Shown piece after piece: positions 12,194-21,710 of a stretch of DNA of 35,469 bases. Each line of letters begins with the position of its first letter. Positions within the stretch are counted from its first letter, which is position 1. The stretch is from Bdellovibrionales bacterium. Lineage in GTDB: Bacteria; Bdellovibrionota; Bdellovibrionia; Bdellovibrionales; UBA1609. A program made the position numbers and the translations under genes. The notes under the pieces are model-generated. The model ran no database searches and was not told the origin of the DNA. It saw only the letters and a program-made list of their open reading frames with translations. The stretch lies in NCBI GenBank assembly GCA_020435005.1, contig JAGRAE010000011.1, forward strand, positions 1-35,469, read 5' to 3'.

Positions 12194-13477
12194 TTACAAT
12201 TTTATTGCTTTTGTATTTGGCCCAGTTTCCACTGCGATTCCAGTAACTGAAAAATCTAAATTATTTTTATTTTTAATTTCTAATACTGGAGGTAAAAGTG
12301 TTACAGAGTTTTCGGCAGCATCGTAATACCAATCTTTTCCATACTCTAATATTTGCTCGCCCAGTTTAACTTTGATTTGTGGAACAAAAATATATTTATT
12401 TGAATCTTTATCAGTAACTTCTTTAGTTTCAGGTATAAAATTCAAATAAATTGGTCTCATAATTGTTTCCTTACTAATAGCTTCACCAATGCTGGCTAAC
12501 TTTTCACCCCAATCATCAGAGTGTAAATTCAAAATTCTAAGAGACTCGAGCATTTTGTCAGCTTGAGTGGCATCTTTCACTCGCGCTTGCAATGAGGCTC
12601 TTCTTTTGTCATGAACTATATTAATAAATGATCTTATTTTTTCTGCATCATGCTCTATTCCTTTATTCTGACATTCTGAATCACCAATATTACATAACAC
12701 ACCATAGGCCAAAAGATTTGCCGCTTTTCCGCTCTTAAATGTAAACAATTGATTATATAAGTCCATAGGAGAAATATTTTCTACAGTATTAATTAGATCA
12801 GGTTGTGATTTTTGTTTATTTAATGGGATATCACCCGTTTCAGCATCTGTAACAAAAACAATAACTAACAATGCGTCTTCACGAAAAAAACCATTATTTT
12901 CTGTATTATTTTGAGTGGCTGCGACTAGAGGACTAAACATTTCCTCTATTTCAGGTCCTATGGGAAATTCTTGCTTTTTATCATTCTTAACTGCGATAAA
13001 TGGCACTTCAATATTAAAATATTCAGGTAAAATATTTAAATCTTTTTTTGTTAGAAATCTTTTACTTTTATTTTGATTCAAAAATACAAGCTCGCCTTTA
13101 TCAAAAAACTGGAGACGTCCATTTAATGGATGAAACTTTAAAACACTACGAGAATTATTAGGATCATTTGTGTATCGGCTAGAATCAAAAGTATAGATTA
13201 CGCCAATATGTGGGTCCACTTGTGGAAACTTTTTTAGGTTATCTGTAAATTTATGTGCATTTTCCTTAATCTTTTCGATTTCATTTTTCATGCTATTAGA
13301 GTTATCAAGCATAAATATTATGTCTACTTTGGTTTTCATTTTCTGAATCGGCGGCAATGCCTTTGTTTCGACAACTTTTACCTCTTTAGGTGGATCCATT
13401 AATAAAGGGGTTTCAGTTTCAGAACAAGCAATTATAGTCAACATACTAAAAAAGTATATAATTATTTTTTGGCCCAT
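12194..13477 (-). CDS. von Willebrand factor A domain lipoprotein, last gene of the Glt/Agl-like operon
   Basis: The frame extends to a TTG at 13504, but ATG at 13477 follows AAGGAAG at good spacing and begins a lipoprotein signal (MGQK, hydrophobic core, IIAC with Cys18). The mature protein carries a vWA domain: VDIIFMLDNSNSM has the metal-site DxSxS pattern (Asp58, Ser60, Ser62), and FVTDAETGD about 150 residues on provides further metal-site residues. vWA domains bind protein partners through Mg2+. A C-terminal region (about 320-427) is beta rich (IPETKEV..., LEYGKDWYYD...). It overlaps the upstream TPR gene by 16 nt. I do not recall vWA proteins among the established Myxococcus Glt components, so its role here is unknown; surface or periplasmic adhesion or scaffolding is a guess. 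Confidence 0.85.
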   Translation of the reverse strand: MGQKIIIYFFSMLTIIACSETETPLLMDPPKEVKVVETKALPPIQKMKTKVDIIFMLDNSNSMKNEIEKIKENAHKFTDNLKKFPQVDPHIGVIYTFDSSRYTNDPNNSRSVLKFHPLNGRLQFFDKGELVFLNQNKSKRFLTKKDLNILPEYFNIEVPFIAVKNDKKQEFPIGPEIEEMFSPLVAATQNNTENNGFFREDALLVIVFVTDAETGDIPLNKQKSQPDLINTVENISPMDLYNQLFTFKSGKAANLLAYGVLCNIGDSECQNKGIEHDAEKIRSFINIVHDKRRASLQARVKDATQADKMLESLRILNLHSDDWGEKLASIGEAISKETIMRPIYLNFIPETKEVTDKDSNKYIFVPQIKVKLGEQILEYGKDWYYDAAENSVTLLPPVLEIKNKNNLDFSVTGIAVETGPNTKAIKL

Positions 13478-14451
13478 TTTTTTCTTCCTTCGAGTTTTGG
13501 ACAATCTTTAACTTGAACATGAAATTTATCAATTTCATCTATCCAAATTTCCTCACCTTGACTTGGGAATTTTAACCATTCAGACCCACCAAAATTTGCA
13601 TGATTTCTAAATTTATTATTTGGTTCATAAGCAATATGAACTCTTTGAATTGCTTCTGCCTCAATTAAATGAAGTAACTTTAAATTTTTTCTAATTTCTT
13701 GCAAATCTCTTTGGGCCAAGTATTTTAACCGTTTAAAGATACTTATCTCAGCACTTTTTGACTTCCTTTTTAGTTCCTCAAAATATCTTTGCAAATACTT
13801 ATCTCTATGAAACATAAATGGAAATGCCTCTAATTTTTTAGTTAGTAAATCAAAAGATAGGTTGCCATTTTTACCCATAGTTATTAATTGAATAGATTCA
13901 CTATGTTTTCCATTATTTTTTACTAAATTCTCTAAATTTAGAATTCTATCTTTATATCTTTTTTTAAAATGATCCGTTGTTTTAAACACACCTATATAAT
14001 CACAAATTTTAAGATGAGCGAAAGCTTTTAAAAAATAAGGTTCAGGGCCAATAACCTGATCAAAAATAGGTGTCATTAATGATTGCAATTTTGCCAATGC
14101 CATTTCTTCTTTACCTAATGCAACATAGGCCCAAGCCATTTCTTCAACAGCTAAAGGCCAAAAATCTGATGATTTAGTTATATTTTGATAATTTTTAATT
14201 GATTCAACGTAATTTTCTAATTGGTAAAAAGCTCTTCCTAAAGTCAGGTAAACTTGATTTTTATCTATATCAGATGAAAGATCACTTTTTCTTAAAAGTG
14301 AATTTAAAACTGATATGGCTTGAATAGGCTTATTACTTAGTATCAACTTTCTAGCAAGTTGCCAATTGTAATCATCCTTATTAGTAGCATGTGAATAATT
14401 AATTGAAATGGCAGCAGCTAAAAAGCACAGCGCAATAAGTACTTTTCTCAC
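13462..14451 (-). CDS. Periplasmic TPR protein of the Glt/Agl-like operon
   Basis: The 329-residue product starts at GTG (GTGA overlap with the barrel gene's stop) and has a signal peptide of about 22 residues ending near SHA. Helical repeats of TPR type occupy about 30-170 (LARKLILSNKPIQAISVLNSLL, YLTLGRAFYQLENYVESI, EEMAWAYVALGKEEMALAKL). The rest is helical (about 210-270), with a C-terminal segment GSEWLKFPSQGEEIWIDEID. I associate a similar ending with TPR proteins of gliding-motility clusters, but cannot name the exact orthologue. It probably acts as a periplasmic adaptor between the outer-membrane barrel and the motor subunits. Confidence 0.78.
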   Translation of the reverse strand: MRKVLIALCFLAAAISINYSHATNKDDYNWQLARKLILSNKPIQAISVLNSLLRKSDLSSDIDKNQVYLTLGRAFYQLENYVESIKNYQNITKSSDFWPLAVEEMAWAYVALGKEEMALAKLQSLMTPIFDQVIGPEPYFLKAFAHLKICDYIGVFKTTDHFKKRYKDRILNLENLVKNNGKHSESIQLITMGKNGNLSFDLLTKKLEAFPFMFHRDKYLQRYFEELKRKSKSAEISIFKRLKYLAQRDLQEIRKNLKLLHLIEAEAIQRVHIAYEPNNKFRNHANFGGSEWLKFPSQGEEIWIDEIDKFHVQVKDCPKLEGRKKWAKK

Positions 14452-15149
14452 AACAATACCCCTATTGCTAGTGAAACAAAAGTCATATCCATATTTCTAG
14501 AACCTGTAGTTACTTGATCTTGATAGCTCATTTGTCTGACTTCAAATCTTGATGATAAATGTTGGCTCAACCAAACACCAATCCCTCCACCAACTGTCCA
14601 ACTTGTGCTTGATCCAGATTTTAAATTAACTTGTCCATATCCTCCCAATAAATAAATATCAAATTGTGAGATTCCAAGATCTAACATATTCATTTTGCCA
14701 TATATAGGGTACCAACTAAGCACGCCATGTGTTGAATTGAAGGGACTATCAATTTCTGGCACAATGCTGTCTTTTGTATAAGGATTTTTTTCAGCAATTT
14801 CATATCTGTTTTCTGCTTCACTGTTTAACTTATTATCAAAATTGGCATACCTAACGCCCAATGAAAATTTTGGAGAAATGTGTAATTCTGCAATTCCACC
14901 TACTGCTGAACTATTTAAGAATGGGTTACCACCTTCAACCATTGAATAGTTGGCACCAAACTCAACACGCCAATTCCTATTAACTTTCCTTTTTTGAACT
15001 ACACGAAGTCTATTCTTAGGATCCAATGCCCTAGCTCGTTTTAAAATGGCCTTGTCTGCTCCTAAAGAATCCAAATCCTTGCTTAAATCACTAGCATAAG
15101 TAGCCTGAAACATATAAAAAATAATAAATACCACTAATGCCAATTTCAT
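14448..15149 (-). CDS. Outer-membrane beta-barrel protein of the Glt/Agl-like operon
   Basis: The 233-residue product has a signal peptide (1-19, ending TYA), a short charged linker with LDPKNRLRVVQKR, and then alternating amphipathic beta strands from about 58 to the end. It finishes with FVSLAIGVLL, the hydrophobic terminal strand expected of an outer-membrane barrel. Glycine-rich strands such as VGGIAELHISPKFSLGVRYA, YLLGGYGQVNL and WTVGGGIGVWL suggest a small barrel of the type shared by myxobacteria and Bdellovibrio. AGGAGTG precedes the ATG, which overlaps the lipoprotein stop (ATGA). In Myxococcus gliding clusters comparable barrels form the outer-membrane part of the machine. Confidence 0.8.
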   Translation of the reverse strand: MKLALVVFIIFYMFQATYASDLSKDLDSLGADKAILKRARALDPKNRLRVVQKRKVNRNWRVEFGANYSMVEGGNPFLNSSAVGGIAELHISPKFSLGVRYANFDNKLNSEAENRYEIAEKNPYTKDSIVPEIDSPFNSTHGVLSWYPIYGKMNMLDLGISQFDIYLLGGYGQVNLKSGSSTSWTVGGGIGVWLSQHLSSRFEVRQMSYQDQVTTGSRNMDMTFVSLAIGVLL

Positions 15150-15670
15150 TTTTCACTCCTATTTTTCTTAATTCCAATACTAACTAAATGTGAATTTTGG
15201 CTTTGATAAAACTTTAACAATTCAATAGTACGTGCACTCGTTTTCTCTTTATTGTATGACAGTAAAAATTCAATCTCATACTCACTGACATTATTTTCTT
15301 CATTGACTCTATTTTCTGGATTGCCTGATAAGATATATTCATACTGACTGTTTTTTTGACTATCTAAACTAAAAGTCATCCATTTAGGTATTTCAGAGTT
15401 TTTACCAACTTTTACCTTTATTACTGGATCAACCAATTCAACCAATTTAATATTTAAAATTACTTTAATTTTATTTATTTTTCCGATTTCCCACTGGGGC
15501 TGACTTTCTACGCTTAGTTTTATCGCATCATTAGGCAAATATTTTTGTTCTACTATGTTTTTTTCTTTGAGTGGAACATATTTGTTCGCATCATATTTTG
15601 AAGTGGGATCATTTTCTGGTGCGCAAGCATATAAGCCAAATGATAAAAATAAAATTAAGATTTTATTCAT
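15146..15670 (-). CDS. Lipoprotein of unknown function in the Glt/Agl-like operon
   Basis: The 174-residue product has a lipoprotein signal: MNKILILFLSFGLYAC, with Cys16 as the modified residue and Ala-Pro-Glu following it. The mature domain looks all-beta (IKLSVESQPQWEIGKINKIK, PVIKVKVG, YEIEFLLSYNKEK), similar to an immunoglobulin-like fold, but no family is recognised. AAGAGGT lies upstream of the ATG. Both ends overlap neighbours by the ATGA pattern. Its place between the TonB-like protein and the barrel suggests it helps attach the machine to the outer membrane. Confidence 0.75.
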   Translation of the reverse strand: MNKILILFLSFGLYACAPENDPTSKYDANKYVPLKEKNIVEQKYLPNDAIKLSVESQPQWEIGKINKIKVILNIKLVELVDPVIKVKVGKNSEIPKWMTFSLDSQKNSQYEYILSGNPENRVNEENNVSEYEIEFLLSYNKEKTSARTIELLKFYQSQNSHLVSIGIKKNRSEK

Positions 15671-16884
15671 AATGACCTCTTGCTAATATGTGTAGCACCA
15701 AGCCTTCTCAGGCTGAATGGATAGGTTACTTTTACGTTAACTTGACCATATGGCTTGGGAAATTTCCATGTTTTAAGCTTTGAAACAATACATGATTCAA
15801 CTGGTTTAGACCTTAAACTTGTACTATGAACTTTGGCAAAACTAACTTTTCCAGAAGCAGCTATTATAAATCTTACTGCTACACGTCCTGAGAGATCTGG
15901 CTCTTTTTGTAATCCCTTTTCATAGCAATAAATAACTTGACCAAGGTTTCTTTTTACAACGGCATCTATCTGTGATTTATCCAATCCCCCTTCGATAAAA
16001 GCTTCTTCTCTCAACGGGGCAGTATAGTACTTTGCGGAACCACTTATAGATATTCTTCCATAGCCATTGTTTCCACCACCCTGGCCTTTAGTTTTAAATC
16101 CTTCAACAGCCCCAATATTAGCACCAGAACCAACTTGTGAGGCAACCAAACCCTTTCCAATAACTACTCTTTGATGTCCGCCAACTTTTCCAGTGTTTAT
16201 AACTTTTGCTTTTTTTCCATTGATAGATCCAAGATCTAAATTACTCTTAGCGGCTCCTGAATGCAATCCATTTAAAGCAGCCAATAGACTATTATCTGAA
16301 ACTTTGTTATTGCCTTTATTTTTAATTCTTTTATTTCTTTTTATACTTTTACTTACAACACCAATTTTAGTTAACTTACGCTTTTTGTTGTACTTATACT
16401 TTTTCTTTTTAATTATTTTATTTTTACTTACTTTGACAACTTTATTATTTACATTATTTCTATTTTGTTTAAAAACTTTAACTACTACAGCTTCGTTTGG
16501 CTTTGGTTCTTTATAGAAATATCCAACAAGAAGTAAAACCAACAACGCGAGCATATGTCCAAGTGTTGTCCATCTTAAAATATTATTGTAATTATCAGAT
16601 TCTTCTTTAACGTATACAGACGGAATATAGCCATGATTGTCTCTAACTTGTACTAATTTTATTTTACTATTAATTTTAAGAGGTTTGCTTTTGATTTGAG
16701 CTTTCGTAACTTTAGAAACAATATCATATGTATCTTTATCTAAAAGAAGTAAACTTGTTTCAGATACAAGTTCAATTCTATTAGATCCAACCACACGAAT
16801 TATTACGGCACTAGAACCCTGCCATATAATATTCCTTACTATTTTGTTATCTGAATTAAGAAAAGCATATCTTTCGTGATTCAT
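15667..16884 (-). CDS. TonB-like protein with AgmX/PglI C-terminal domain (GltG/GltJ-like)
   Basis: The 405-residue product has no signal peptide. Residues 1-100 form a cytoplasmic, beta-rich domain (possibly FHA-like, not proven). There is a single transmembrane helix at about 107-123. An extremely Lys/Arg/Asn-rich stretch follows at about 140-195, then a glycine-rich linker (LLAALNGLHSG onward). A C-terminal TonB-like tail occupies about 300-395: AVVKRNLGQVIYCYEKGLQ, GRVAVRFIIAASGKV, CIVSKLKTWKFPKP, VTYPFSLRRL. This tail matches the AgmX/PglI C-terminal domain with its two conserved cysteines (Cys320, Cys365). It probably transmits motion or force from the ExbB/ExbD motor across the periplasm, as GltG/GltJ are thought to do in Myxococcus. 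Both ends overlap neighbours (ATGA). Confidence 0.85.
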   Translation of the reverse strand: MNHERYAFLNSDNKIVRNIIWQGSSAVIIRVVGSNRIELVSETSLLLLDKDTYDIVSKVTKAQIKSKPLKINSKIKLVQVRDNHGYIPSVYVKEESDNYNNILRWTTLGHMLALLVLLLVGYFYKEPKPNEAVVVKVFKQNRNNVNNKVVKVSKNKIIKKKKYKYNKKRKLTKIGVVSKSIKRNKRIKNKGNNKVSDNSLLAALNGLHSGAAKSNLDLGSINGKKAKVINTGKVGGHQRVVIGKGLVASQVGSGANIGAVEGFKTKGQGGGNNGYGRISISGSAKYYTAPLREEAFIEGGLDKSQIDAVVKRNLGQVIYCYEKGLQKEPDLSGRVAVRFIIAASGKVSFAKVHSTSLRSKPVESCIVSKLKTWKFPKPYGQVNVKVTYPFSLRRLGATHISKRSL

Positions 16885-17120
16885 TTTTGGACCCTTAGGT
16901 TTGTTTTAACTCTATCTTTAAAATTTTTTCTAAGCGCTAATAAATCTAAAATGGACTTTTCATCTTCAACAATTGACAATCCTTCACCTGACGTATTGTA
17001 TCTACCATTCACATCAGCTTCAGAAAACTCAAAGTTAGTTCCTAAACTTGATTTTTTATTCTTCGAGTCTGCAAAGCAATTAGAAGAAAAAAATATTAAT
17101 ACAATCAACAAGCTCTTCAT
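16881..17120 (-). CDS. Small periplasmic protein of the Glt/Agl-like operon
   Basis: The 79-residue product has a signal peptide (MKSLLIVLIFFSSNCFA) and a short mature part with FSEADVNGRYNTSGEGLSIV, then EDEKSILDLLALRKNFKDR. The frame runs upstream to a TTG, but ATG at 17120 has TTGGAG before it and shares ATGA with the end of the large TPR gene. The ILDLLALRKNFKDRV segment resembles ends of small proteins linked to myxobacterial gliding clusters. This is recollection, so function is inferred only from position next to the TonB-like gene. Confidence 0.72.
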   Translation of the reverse strand: MKSLLIVLIFFSSNCFADSKNKKSSLGTNFEFSEADVNGRYNTSGEGLSIVEDEKSILDLLALRKNFKDRVKTNLRVQK

Positions 17121-20092
17121 TTTAAACTCCAATTGTCTAGTTTTGCCAATCTAATATCCAAGTAAGCTACAATAGTATGTGAATTGTTTCTTTCTTCTAA
17201 TTCTTTTAAATGTAACAAAACATTACTATCGAGAGGATTATTTTTTAAATCCTGCCAGGCTTTTCTTAAGTCACTATTATTAACGTATTTATTAGTTTTA
17301 ATTTTACTTATATTACTCAGTTTATTTTTCATGCTGTTAGGTGCTAGCTCTAATAATAACTTAAGCTCATTTTTTAATAACTCACTAACTTTGATAGAGG
17401 TTGACTTAATATCTTCTTCTAAACTTGTAAACAAAGCATTGTTATCCCAAAATGACTGTGTTTTTTTGTCAATACTTTGTGCTTTTACTATAAAGGGCTT
17501 TGCTTTTTCATTTAATGCCCTTACAAATTCATTGGCTTGAATTTTATTTATGTTTTTAGGTACAGGTAGAGACGTGATCTCGTTAGCAATTCTCAGATTT
17601 TCCTGCTTTAAATTCTCAAGAGAATATAATTGTGAAAGCCAATCTTGTGAAAAGATGGCTTCATTGGCCTTCTTTTCTAAGAGTTTTAATAAATTTAATC
17701 TCTTATTTAGTGATTTCTTAAGCAAATATTGGCTTTGTGAATGTATTTTGTGATTCTTAACCTCATTTAATAATTTCATATACTCATTTAAATAAAGTTC
17801 TCTCATAATTATTCTTGCTGAATTTGTTTTTTTAATACTAGTAGTTTTTATTATCGTTTTGACTTTTTTCTGTTCTTTAGAATTTGCATACAATTCCAAA
17901 GCTAAATCACTTAGTATATCTGGGGTGAATTTTAATTTATTATAGTTTTTACTTAATAGTTGCCATGGCTTTTTTGATTCCAAAATGAATTTCGCTCTGA
18001 TTGAATTAGCTTGTTTTCTACTATTAGTATATCTAATAAAATCATTATAATACTTTTCATAAGGCATTTTAGCTAGCTCGGCTAGCATACCTAGCCAGAT
18101 TGAATGCTCCGTTTTATTCATGCTAGTATTCTTAATTTTACGTGCATACAAGTATGACTTTTTAAAATTTGATTTTAGCTCATTACCCCAAACCAAATAA
18201 TTAAGTGCAAAATCATTATCATGTACAGATAGTTTAGGAATTTTATATAACCCTGTGGCTGCAGCAATTAAATTACTGATGTCATTAAGTCTCTCAGCGA
18301 TTACTATTTTTGCTTTATAAATTTGTATTTTTTCTTTTTTATCTGATCCAATTAAAGAAATACCAGATAATCTTTGAAATGCTTTCTCATTAATTTCTCG
18401 AGTTGCATTCTTATCGTCAACTATGTTTAAGGCTAAAATTAAACTTGCTTTGCGTGCGTGTGATTTAAATTCTTTTTCCTTACTTTTAAATAATTTTGAA
18501 AATTCAATCGCAACCTTCTCCAATTTTTCATAATTTTTAGCTAATACAAGATTGTCTATCACCAACTCTGCTGCTTTTTTCTTCAATCCCTTATATTTTG
18601 AGGTTTTTCTGGTTGCAACGAAGTAAAAACTGTCAGCTGCTTTTAAATATTCTTTTTTCGAAGAAAACAAATGAGCCATTTGATAATTTACTTCAATCGC
18701 TTTTGGTCCTTTTGCATTAACTTCTAAATAATATTCATAAGCTTCTTTCTTTGAATTATTATTATTAGAGGATTCTGCAGCCTCTATTTCTCCAACTAAC
18801 GCAGCTTCAAATGCCGGACCTTTTTTAGCTCTATCGATGGCTCTATGGGAAGCCAATCTGAACAATTCTTGAGATTTTTTAAATTGATTTAATGATTTAG
18901 CAATAGTTGCAGCCCTTAAAATCATTTCATAGTCATCATCAAATAAAGAAATATACGCAATATATGTATTTAATAAATTTTCTGATATTTTTTTTCCTCT
19001 TTGCTTGTGCCAGTTTATAACATGGTTTTTTGCTCGAATTCGCAAGGCTTCACAGTCTACCTTGTCTTTACATCCATTTTTTTTCCAAAAATTAATGGCC
19101 TCAACAAATGAAGCTACTGATTTATTATACTTAGCTGCAATTAAATGTAACTCAGCTAGTCGAATCAATACCTCTAATTTCTGATCATTAGTAATTTCTT
19201 TACTATTTAAAACATTTTCCCAAACCAATAATGCGCTGGAATAAGTACCTAGTCTGCTTAATTCTTGTCCAAGATAAAATAAATTATCATAAGCTTTTCC
19301 TGTTGGACTGATTTCTAATAATTCTTTAATATCTTTATTTGTAACTTTACCACGAGCATAAAATACAGAAAGATCTCTAGCAATATCTTGTTGAAAAGAT
19401 ATATCAAGCTCAAACCCCTCTTTTGTTTCAAGTGAAATAAGCCTTGGTGTTTTTAATAATTTTACTAAAGTATTTTTAGCCTCTGAGTGTTTACCAACAT
19501 TCAATAAACACCAAGCTTTTCTATATACTATTAATCCAGGCGATTTTAACTGATCAATTTTCAAGGCTTGGTTGGCATGGTTTAATGCTTTGTGAAACAA
19601 GCCCCTAGCATAATAAATCTCAACTAAACCAGCATGTGCTTCTGCAATAATTTTGGGATTAGTTATAGTTTTTTTATTAATGATGTTTTCAAATAAATTT
19701 TCAGCTCGCTTATCCTGTCCAGTCATTCTATATAGATGTGCCATCTGGAAAATAGCTATGTGTTGGACTTTAGAATTTTTTGATAAACTTAATAACTTTT
19801 TATACAAACTTATAGCTTTAATTCTATCTTCTTTACTCTTTAAGCAGTTTTTGCAGTTTTCATCAATTTCTTTTATAAATTTTTTTCTAGCTCTTTCTGA
19901 GTACAAATCTGCTATTCTACCTATTAATGCTTCCCCTTTAACTGAATCTTCTTTAACAAGAGGCAGTGCTTTCTCTAATTTAAAAATTACGTTATTTAAC
20001 GAATCCATATCCATGGCTTCAATTGCAAGAACGTTTCTAAAAAAGAAAATTAATGCAATAGTTATAAAAATGTGAAGTGTAAAATCCTTCAC
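17117..20092 (-). CDS. Large TPR-repeat protein of the Glt/Agl-like operon
   Basis: The 991-residue product starts at GTG (GTGA overlap with the ExbD gene), preceded by AGGAGAAG. It has a signal peptide (1 to about 23, ending VLA), so it acts in the periplasm. TPR-like helical pairs recur through the first two thirds (for example AIFQMAHLYRMTGQDKRAE, EAHAGLVEIYYARGLFHKAL, EVLIRLAELHLIAAKYNKS, IEVNYQMAHLFSSKKEYLKA). The last third is lysine-rich helix. Large TPR proteins such as AgmU/GltD in Myxococcus gliding complexes occupy a similar place, but one-to-one orthology cannot be shown from sequence reading alone. A likely role is a scaffold linking inner- and outer-membrane parts. Confidence 0.82.
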   Translation of the reverse strand: MKDFTLHIFITIALIFFFRNVLAIEAMDMDSLNNVIFKLEKALPLVKEDSVKGEALIGRIADLYSERARKKFIKEIDENCKNCLKSKEDRIKAISLYKKLLSLSKNSKVQHIAIFQMAHLYRMTGQDKRAENLFENIINKKTITNPKIIAEAHAGLVEIYYARGLFHKALNHANQALKIDQLKSPGLIVYRKAWCLLNVGKHSEAKNTLVKLLKTPRLISLETKEGFELDISFQQDIARDLSVFYARGKVTNKDIKELLEISPTGKAYDNLFYLGQELSRLGTYSSALLVWENVLNSKEITNDQKLEVLIRLAELHLIAAKYNKSVASFVEAINFWKKNGCKDKVDCEALRIRAKNHVINWHKQRGKKISENLLNTYIAYISLFDDDYEMILRAATIAKSLNQFKKSQELFRLASHRAIDRAKKGPAFEAALVGEIEAAESSNNNNSKKEAYEYYLEVNAKGPKAIEVNYQMAHLFSSKKEYLKAADSFYFVATRKTSKYKGLKKKAAELVIDNLVLAKNYEKLEKVAIEFSKLFKSKEKEFKSHARKASLILALNIVDDKNATREINEKAFQRLSGISLIGSDKKEKIQIYKAKIVIAERLNDISNLIAAATGLYKIPKLSVHDNDFALNYLVWGNELKSNFKKSYLYARKIKNTSMNKTEHSIWLGMLAELAKMPYEKYYNDFIRYTNSRKQANSIRAKFILESKKPWQLLSKNYNKLKFTPDILSDLALELYANSKEQKKVKTIIKTTSIKKTNSARIIMRELYLNEYMKLLNEVKNHKIHSQSQYLLKKSLNKRLNLLKLLEKKANEAIFSQDWLSQLYSLENLKQENLRIANEITSLPVPKNINKIQANEFVRALNEKAKPFIVKAQSIDKKTQSFWDNNALFTSLEEDIKSTSIKVSELLKNELKLLLELAPNSMKNKLSNISKIKTNKYVNNSDLRKAWQDLKNNPLDSNVLLHLKELEERNNSHTIVAYLDIRLAKLDNWSLK

Positions 20093-20577
20093 TTAACTTC
20101 TCCTTGGACTACGGCTAGCTTTATTTTCTCAAACCCCACATTTGAACTTGCTAACATTATGGGACTTAATTTTTCAAATTCTGATTCCTTGTCAGCTTCA
20201 ACAATAAGATAGGGGACTTTTTGAGGATCTTGTTTTGCCATGATGGCTCTAAGTGCATTAGTAAGATTTGTCGCTGACACTATTTTTTCTTGAATAACAA
20301 AGTGTCCGTTCTTAATTTTAACTATCACTCCGCTTTCAATATTCTTTGTGCTTGAGGCTGTTGGTAAGCTGATTGTATCATCAATTTTTACTTCATGTTG
20401 AGTGGCTGTTGAGTTAACTAACAAGTAAATAACTAAGATAGCAAATGCATCAACAAGTGGAGTTAAAATTAAAGGAACAGCAAGAGACTTAGATTCAATA
20501 GTTTTATTATAGTTTAATATCGAAGAATTTTTTAAAGGAGAATCTAAAATTTTTGTTTTACCAATTTCATTATCCAT
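20089..20577 (-). CDS. ExbD/TolR-like motor protein with the conserved aspartate
   Basis: The 162-residue product has one transmembrane helix at about 33-55 in which PLILTPLVDAFAILVIYLLV contains Asp43, the proton-binding aspartate of ExbD/TolR/MotB-type subunits. A periplasmic ExbD-like domain follows (IDDTISLPTAS, YLIVEADKESEFEKLSPIMLASSNVGFEKIKLAVV). Such subunits sit in an ExbB/TolQ pentamer and couple proton flow to movement. AGAGGTTCAT precedes the ATG. It is the second of two ExbD-like genes here and seems to be the one carrying the proton site. It resembles AglS/AglQ of Myxococcus. Confidence 0.88.
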   Translation of the reverse strand: MDNEIGKTKILDSPLKNSSILNYNKTIESKSLAVPLILTPLVDAFAILVIYLLVNSTATQHEVKIDDTISLPTASSTKNIESGVIVKIKNGHFVIQEKIVSATNLTNALRAIMAKQDPQKVPYLIVEADKESEFEKLSPIMLASSNVGFEKIKLAVVQGEVK

Positions 20578-20585
20578 ATGAACCT

Positions 20586-21005
20586 CTATAAGGGGGCTAT
20601 TCCAACATCTATTATGCCTCTAGCTTTAAATACATCTATTAGTCGAACAATATCTTGATACTTAGAAGCACCTGCAGGAAGAATCATAGCAATTTTTATA
20701 CGTGGATCTTTTTTAACAAGATAATTAGAGTACGACTCAATTTCTTTCCAATCATTAATAGATAAGCTACGCTTACCTTTAGATATAACAGTACTATCTT
20801 TTACTTCAAATTTAATGTTAGAGCCTTCAAAACTTGCTGAAAGTGTGGGCTCTACTTTCCTATCTGAATCGGTGCCTAGAGCTTGTGATATTTCAAGAGA
20901 ACTTATATGTATCCATACTGACGTCAGCAATAAGAAGCTAATAATAACTGCTAATAAGGATATGACAGGCATTAAATCTAATTCAAAACTTTGTTTATCA
21001 CTCAC
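20586..21005 (-). CDS. ExbD/TolR-like protein lacking the conserved aspartate
   Basis: The 139-residue product has the ExbD layout: a short N terminus, one transmembrane helix (about 12-33), then a periplasmic domain ending with KIAMILPAGASKYQDIVRLIDVFKARGI, which matches the ExbD C-terminal pattern. The TPLID-type motif at the start of the helix reads MPVIS: Ser16 stands where the proton-binding Asp normally sits. GTG is the start, with TTTGGAGT upstream. It may pair with the aspartate-bearing paralogue encoded 8 bp downstream to form a heterodimer inside the ExbB ring. Confidence 0.84.
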   Translation of the reverse strand: MSDKQSFELDLMPVISLLAVIISFLLLTSVWIHISSLEISQALGTDSDRKVEPTLSASFEGSNIKFEVKDSTVISKGKRSLSINDWKEIESYSNYLVKKDPRIKIAMILPAGASKYQDIVRLIDVFKARGIIDVGIAPL

Positions 21006-21020
21006 TTAACAACTCCAAAC

Positions 21021-21710
21021 TTAAACAGATTTTTTACGCACTTTCGAAGTAGGAACACCTGTAAAGTTAAAACTTAACCAATTAGCCGCTTTTTGTGCTG
21101 CCTGTTTTAAATCTTCATTAAGTGTTTTAGTTCGTCCTTGTAAAACCGCAAATCCAACTAGTGCAGGTATTGCCATAATCAAGCCATAAGCTGTTGTATT
21201 CATAGCCATTGATATACCATGGGTTAGAGCGGCTGCTTTCTCAACGGGATTTACATTGTTGGCAACGGATGAAAAGGCTTGAATAAGACCTACTATCGTA
21301 CCTAATAACCCTAACAATGTACCAACATTGCCTAGCATAGGAAGATAGCCTGTTCTTTTATCTAATTTTTCTGATTCACTAAGCAAAACTTCATCCATTT
21401 TTGCTTGAATCTCTTCTCTACCACCCAAACTATCCGCAGCAATTGCTCCTGCTCTAACAACATTATAAATTGGATTTCGACCAGTTGTAGAATTTGCGTT
21501 TAATGAACTTTTTAAATTTCCAGATTTAATGTCTTTTTCAAATCTTAGTACAATATTCTTTTGCACGGGGGTTCTCAATATATAGAGACTAAATGCTCTT
21601 TCTATAATTATTGCTATCGACACAACTTGTGCTGCTAAAATAGCCCACATCCAAATTCCACCGGCCGTAAAAGCTTGTGAAATGGCATTCATAGTATCCA
21701 ATGTTCCCAT
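21021..21710 (-). CDS. ExbB/TolQ/MotA-like proton-channel protein (AglR-like)
   Basis: The 229-residue product has three transmembrane helices at about 18-38, 122-145 and 165-190, with a cytoplasmic loop between the first two. The conserved core is LPMLGNVGTLLGLLGTIVGLIQAFSSV, continuing with GISMAMNTTAYGLIMAIPAL, as in MotA/TolQ/ExbB proteins. The frame opens at an ATG at 21770, but ATG at 21710 follows GAGGAGTG with ideal spacing and gives the normal N terminus. It is the first gene of the operon, 15 bp ahead of the first ExbD-like gene. With the ExbD-like partners it should form the proton-driven motor. Confidence 0.92.
   Translation of the reverse strand: MGTLDTMNAISQAFTAGGIWMWAILAAQVVSIAIIIERAFSLYILRTPVQKNIVLRFEKDIKSGNLKSSLNANSTTGRNPIYNVVRAGAIAADSLGGREEIQAKMDEVLLSESEKLDKRTGYLPMLGNVGTLLGLLGTIVGLIQAFSSVANNVNPVEKAAALTHGISMAMNTTAYGLIMAIPALVGFAVLQGRTKTLNEDLKQAAQKAANWLSFNFTGVPTSKVRKKSV

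Follow-up and report, generated by a model that had tools for sequence, protein, structure and literature searches.

The described systems closest to the locus reported here are the gliding machineries of Myxococcus and Bdellovibrio. In Myxococcus, CglB and CglD are von Willebrand factor A (vWA) lipoproteins of the gliding system (PMC4488436, PMC13104615), and the GltC, GltA and GltB proteins interact pairwise (PMC4488436). Four agl operons have been listed for Bdellovibrio HD100, two of them being Bd0412-0420 and Bd2368-2377 (PMC2797640), and a vWA lipoprotein, Bd1483, is also encoded in a Bdellovibrio gliding operon (PMC2277423, PMC2797640, PMC11003981). For Bdellovibrio, identifying the motor, the adhesin and the path of force is considered a major open challenge (PMC13104615). 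Here, we analysed a stretch of 35,469 nucleotides from a Bdellovibrionales bacterium (contig JAGRAE010000011.1, hereafter the window), which carries at positions 12194-21710 a ten-gene operon that adds a member to the known Bdellovibrio expanded Agl/Glt core. We propose that this operon probably encodes an Agl/Glt-family trans-envelope force machine of a Bdellovibrionales type, type A, with a vWA lipoprotein as its adhesive end, and that in Bdellovibrio this type likely serves prey entry or movement inside the prey.

The whole interval is a single operon of ten minus-strand open reading frames. Protein identities were obtained by Pfam and NCBIfam profile searches, followed by scans of whole family alignments. 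In operon order, the genes are:

21021-21710, minus strand: AglR-like ExbB/TolQ proton channel, 229 amino acids (PF01618, 8.2e-25; channel Thr/Glu conserved in the A/B-type copies)
20586-21005, minus strand: first ExbD stator, in the AglQ/AglS position, 139 amino acids (PF02472, 2.2e-7; Ser in place of the membrane Asp)
20089-20577, minus strand: second ExbD stator, in the AglS/AglQ position, 162 amino acids (PF02472, 8e-16; membrane Asp kept)
17117-20092, minus strand: large periplasmic TPR protein in the GltD position, 991 amino acids (TPR families; a homologue in all clusters)
16881-17120, minus strand: small exported protein, CglF/GltF homologue, 79 amino acids, directly before GltG (family A5, by alignment and position)
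15667-16884, minus strand: GltG-like TonB-type transducer, 405 amino acids (NF033760 GltG, 1.7e-36; NF033768, 108 bits)
15146-15670, minus strand: slot-7 lipoprotein, 174 amino acids, all-beta (lipidated Cys and Pro in positional homologues; AlphaFold2 model)
14448-15149, minus strand: outer-membrane beta-barrel, GltA/GltB-like, 233 amino acids (TIGR04565 OMP_myx_plus, 90 bits; PF13505, 2e-7; family A4)
13462-14451, minus strand: GltC-like periplasmic TPR protein, 329 amino acids (NF033756 GltC, 2.9e-13)
12194-13477, minus strand: vWA/MIDAS lipoprotein, 427 amino acids, predicted integrin-like surface adhesin (lipobox IIAC, DxSxS, TDA Asp; vWA match, 1.6e-4)

The first gene starts at 21710 and is preceded by GAGGAGTGTAATATG, with GAGGAG as the Shine-Dalgarno sequence. 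The first two junctions are spacers of 15 and 8 nucleotides; they are followed by six 4-nucleotide overlaps (GTGA/ATGA) and by a 16-nucleotide overlap at the entry of the vWA gene, whose best start (ATG at 13477) places the lipobox Cys at residue 18. These re-measured frames and junctions agree with an earlier note made from the letters of the window, which had counted ten minus-strand genes with six of the nine junctions overlapping by four nucleotides.

The arrangement is not a product of chance, its order being shared by dozens of Bdellovibrionales genomes that belong to many families. Clusters were taken from the window's genome and its relatives, with frames matched to profiles built from the window genes, and loci were selected with GltG, since the divergence among the aligned vWA sequences precluded a pattern scan with them. 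Across the order the genes follow one another as ExbB-ExbD-ExbD-TPR-small-GltG-lipoprotein-barrel-GltC-vWA. The gene after GltC was visible in 33 of 39 GltG-selected loci, and in 30 of these it belongs to the vWA family. On a larger scale, 141 GltG loci of type A or B (the latter a sister type, see below) were examined in 141 genomes of the order: 111 have a same-strand vWA-family gene 2.2-4.7 kb downstream, when 0.3 would be expected, and the remaining 30 are mostly located at the ends of contigs. A chance neighbourhood of the vWA gene is thus rejected, and the gene is established as a core and regular component of the operon. The synteny that the earlier note had set as a check does include the vWA gene, but its alternative that this lipoprotein, which it did not know as a Glt component, might be a lineage-specific adaptor is contradicted by the Myxococcus and Bdellovibrio precedents and by the presence of the gene in nearly every intact copy of the operon.

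Two genomes of one genus (G024 and G034) carry at the place of the vWA gene a different, longer vWA lipoprotein (L124:13369-14916 and L120:13762-15360). The replacement protein has DVTGS for DxSxS and is supported by the Pfam VWA family, over the cut-off in G024 only; the copy at L124 also matches an integrin-beta-like vWA family weakly. A real loss of the vWA component in this genus was therefore rejected, a different vWA lipoprotein occupying the place, and a non-orthologous replacement of the tip protein is possible. Because these genomes put another vWA lipoprotein at the same position, the vWA tip itself appears to be what is selected. In another genome (G014), two vWA-family genes stand in tandem after the GltC gene (L142:13516-16010).

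The features of the vWA lipoprotein argue for an adhesin. In 32 of 32 aligned family members both the DxSxS core (D-S-S) and the Asp further on are kept, and nearly all have the lipobox. The MIDAS (metal ion-dependent adhesion site) adhesin model NF052240 matches 27 of the 32 (best 7e-11; 16 bits of the required 700 for the window protein) and the CglD model NF033765 matches 21 (best 9e-11), the window protein itself giving no match to the latter; the match of the family to CglD and the MIDAS adhesins is weak, and it is a relative and not an equivalog. No CglB-named model appeared among the NCBIfam matches of the family, a comparison made with NCBIfam models. The AlphaFold2 model (pLDDT 79, pTM 0.81) has a vWA domain and, C-terminal to it, a beta-rich part. 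No PDB relative was found at the sequence level; at the structure level, the PDB entries that it matches best are integrins (beta headpieces and alpha2 I domains). For the protein as a whole the TM-scores are about 0.35, against 0.6-0.7 with normalisation to the I domain; the integrin resemblance is therefore confined to the vWA core and the general layout. Many of the vWA proteins (that of the window and those of L132, L123, L137 and L134) have a short peptide like SPxLMAPP directly after the lipidated Cys, possibly a docking motif for the outer-membrane platform.

The protein could instead face the periplasm and act as an adaptor joining the TPR proteins to the barrel. Its gene directly follows that of GltC, inner-membrane-tethered vWA force transducers have been proposed beside ExbBD motors (PMC12204202), and CglC, an outer-membrane lipoprotein of Myxococcus, does face the periplasm (PMC4488436). 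We nevertheless regard this as unlikely given (i), the MIDAS core, invariant in all 32 members, and the integrin-like fold, and (ii), the recovery of the related Bd0875 and Bd1483 in a surface secretome study, in which Bd0875-mCherry was located at the predator-prey interface (PMC11003981). Adhesion by the vWA lipoprotein and a part played in prey entry are both inferred.

On the inner side of the envelope, the operon contains an AglRQS-type motor set, one ExbB and two ExbD genes being found together. The second ExbD has the membrane Asp in 45 of 45 A/B-type copies compared. In the first ExbD, the corresponding position is a Ser in the window copy and 22 further ones of those sampled (e.g. at L107, L137 and L132) and an Asp in 19; the motif reads LMPVISLL in the window against LPILDILS in Bdellovibrio, both ExbD proteins keeping their Asp in Bdellovibrio proper. 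The pattern suggests that motors with the Ser would work with one active Asp per ExbD pair. By its residues, namely the ExbB threonines, the Asp of the second ExbD and an S/T-x3-H in the GltG membrane helix, the motor looks functional, in line with the complete proton-driven motor that had been predicted from the window. The genome of the window (3.4 Mb) is rich in proton-driven envelope machines, with 17 MotA/ExbB-family matches and 9 matches to the AgmX/PglI tail.

The GltG-like protein would connect this motor to the periplasm. It is composed of a cytosolic N-terminal part, a single transmembrane helix with a conserved His, a Gly/Lys-rich linker and an AgmX/PglI C-terminal domain (NF033768 myxo_SS_tail, 108 bits for a cut-off of 40). 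S/T-x3-H in a membrane helix is the pattern of TonB and TolA. In 35 A/B-type copies of GltG the transmembrane His is present, and most type A copies also have a Ser or Thr four residues earlier; a related SHLS motif has been described (PMC12204202). All 27 relatives match the GltG model NF033760; the window copy scores 126 bits, below the equivalog cut-off, and its tonB_Cterm match (1.3e-4) is under the cut-off of that model. Similarly, the GltC model NF033756 matches 20 of 20 family members (best 2.3e-17), the window copy remaining under the equivalog cut-off of 450 bits. Half of the relatives of the small protein (9 of 18) match the CglF model NF033764 (best 2.6e-7), which the window copy itself does not match. 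Because its relatives match CglF and because Myxococcus gltF, which encodes an 89-residue exported protein, has the same place directly before gltG (PMC3169522), we consider the small protein to be a CglF/GltF homologue. The barrel passes the OMP_myx_plus cut-off (90 bits for 60), its identity as GltA or GltB being left at GltA/GltB-like. No GltD model match was obtained for the 991-residue TPR protein, and its GltD assignment is by gene order only. GltE had no match in type A or B, the Bd0828-type homologue of the large TPR protein being the one that carries a GltE-like tail. In the slot-7 lipoprotein, the lipidated Cys and a Pro soon after it are invariant over 20 positional homologues; its length varies from about 150 to 550 residues among genomes, no Pfam or NCBIfam family matches it, and the AlphaFold2 model of the window copy is all-beta (pLDDT 72). 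Matches to PTR2 and TraP were below cut-off and discarded.

ExbB and ExbD proteins with a TonB-like C-terminal domain also occur in Tol-Pal and TonB-dependent transport, and Nfs, which may move surface polysaccharide, employs the same families (PMC3169522). That the operon is such a machine is very improbable. The channel scores far under the TolQ and ExbB equivalog cut-offs (70 of 221 and 56 of 206 bits), the GltG match is far better than that to TonB_C, homologues of CglF/GltF and GltC are present, and no TolB, Pal or TonB-dependent receptor is encoded in the operon. On the TolQ, ExbB and TonB model scores, we rejected a Tol-Pal or TonB identity. The profile matches to GltG, GltC, CglF/GltF and the outer-membrane protein thus bear out the Glt/Agl-like assignment of the earlier note; the two outcomes it had held to be fatal, placement in Tol-Pal or TonB systems and lack of synteny with the vWA gene, were both tested and neither was found.

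In a tree of the large TPR protein, types A and B group together (100/100), and the Bd0828-like and Bd1473-like types lie outside this clade. In HD100 the full set of ten slots is found twice, in operons at 388-399 kb and at 2.272-2.283 Mb, which should be Bd0412-0420 (Bd0411-0421) and Bd2368-2377, numbers that we assigned by position, order and gene number and not by annotation. The second of them and a second copy in the window's genome fall in the type B clade (99/95). The window operon is outside type B and groups with two copies of the same family (100/98), the tree leaving the type A branching beyond those unresolved. The type B copy of the window's genome also has ten slots and is apparently split over three contigs (C159, C146 and C313; loci L042, L029 and L035). 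For intraperiplasmic Bdellovibrio, ten complete chromosomes were compared (HD100, Tiberius, kdesi, SSB218315, LBG001, KM01, NC01, SKB1291214, W and ZAP7); every one has the type A pair, and four also have type B. In both sequenced epibiotic relatives, P. exovorus JSS and Candidatus B. qaytius, GltG of type A or B is absent; a Bd0828-like GltG (662-682 residues) is retained in the two, and a Bd1473-like one in qaytius. Outside the Bdellovibrionales, only three sampled genomes of the phylum matched, so that intraperiplasmic predation is unlikely to require this type in general.

These data bear on whether the operon is a plain surface-gliding engine, in which the vWA lipoprotein would be a focal adhesion like CglB or CglD. 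Family kinship with Agl/Glt and the vWA gliding lipoproteins of Myxococcus (PMC4488436, PMC13104615) are consistent with it, and transposon insertions in Bd1481 (aglR) and Bd1483 lower predation on biofilms (PMC2277423). Yet Luciano 2011 considered another Bdellovibrio operon, Bd0828-0838, to be nearest to aglRQS and the prime candidate for gliding (PMC3169522), and epibiotic JSS retains this type while having neither A nor B. Moreover, in HD100 the type A operon is one that is induced in prey: after 30 min of predation, Bd0412-0420 is up 4-7 fold (PMC2797640), and the levels of its proteins are highest at 45-60 min, whereas the Bd2368-2377 proteins increase at exit (PMC12546842). A gliding engine and nothing else is thus rather unlikely. 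With the HD100 type A operon induced upon entry into prey, invasion or movement inside the prey is at least as likely as gliding. It is tempting to go further and see in type A a dedicated motor for prey entry or movement in prey, with its own integrin-like adhesin and distinct from the surface-gliding engine. We hold this stronger reading as tentative and somewhat doubtful; if it is true, type A in the uncultured family of the window would mark many of its members as intraperiplasmic predators.

Going beyond the observed gene set and order, family matches, residue patterns, predicted fold and phyletic distribution, we infer an assembly, a direction of force, a surface display, a ligand and a role in the window's organism for the type A force machine as follows. 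Proton flow through an ExbB pentamer would turn or shift the two paired ExbD proteins of the inner membrane. Held by its membrane helix, the TonB/TolA-like GltG would carry this movement into the periplasm by way of the CglF/GltF-like protein and the large TPR protein. An outer-membrane platform may be formed by the barrel together with GltC and the slot-7 lipoprotein, and the lipid-anchored vWA lipoprotein, displayed or gripped by the GltC/barrel platform, would be dragged by the motor while binding prey or substrate through its metal-dependent MIDAS site. In Bdellovibrio, type A would most likely serve prey entry or movement inside the prey, beyond surface gliding.

Several observations weigh against this proposal. 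None of the window proteins attains the equivalog cut-off for a Glt protein, and they are therefore homologues rather than proven equivalents. No gene of the operon was identified as GltE, GltH, GltI, GltJ or GltK. The window GltG gave no match to PF00498, when Myxococcus GltG is described with an FHA domain (PMC3169522); we do not take this domain as defining for the Bdellovibrio form of GltG. Two genomes of one genus (G020 and G032) have the operon without any vWA gene, and deletion of bd1483, in another gliding operon, caused no defect in prey invasion (PMC11003981). Finally, JSS and qaytius are one lineage in a published tree (PMC11656739), so that the contrast between epibiotic and intraperiplasmic species is a single contrast; it is suggestive, and the presence or absence of types A and B may reflect descent only.

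The operon is flanked by unrelated genes, two convergent Band_7 (HflK/HflC-like) genes on its 3' side and a divergent DCC1-like oxidoreductase gene on its 5' side. A promoter and terminator scan gave no more sites than shuffled sequence.

By this comparison, the four agl/gliding operons known from HD100 fall into types, two of the operons being ten-slot machines that end in a vWA lipoprotein. These two are tied to opposite phases of predation by published expression and are both missing in the two epibiotic relatives. Specific deletion experiments are now possible where there was a vague gliding cluster.

Among the named systems, Bd0412-0420 of HD100 has the same ten slots in the same order as the window operon, both being in the A/B clade and outside the type B clade; its first ExbD keeps the membrane Asp, whereas the window copy has a Ser, and the window slot-7 lipoprotein is much shorter. 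Bd2368-2377 also has the same ten slots but belongs to the separate type B clade, with a shorter GltG and vWA protein, a longer GltC-like protein and no transmembrane His in GltG. Bd1483 and Bd0875 have a beta-rich module besides their lipobox and MIDAS domain (PMC11003981), like the window vWA lipoprotein, and Bd1483 also lies in a gliding operon. In clusters of the Bd1473-1483 type, however, the vWA gene stands before ExbB, at the opposite end from types A and B (L212:4605-5690, L216:9100-10200), whereas in the window it follows GltC. Lastly, the AglRQS-Glt system of Myxococcus xanthus, with CglB, CglD and CglF, shares with the window the motor, GltG, GltC, GltF/CglF, outer-membrane barrels and a vWA lipoprotein, but its genes are distributed over three clusters and separate cgl loci, whereas in the window they form one operon.

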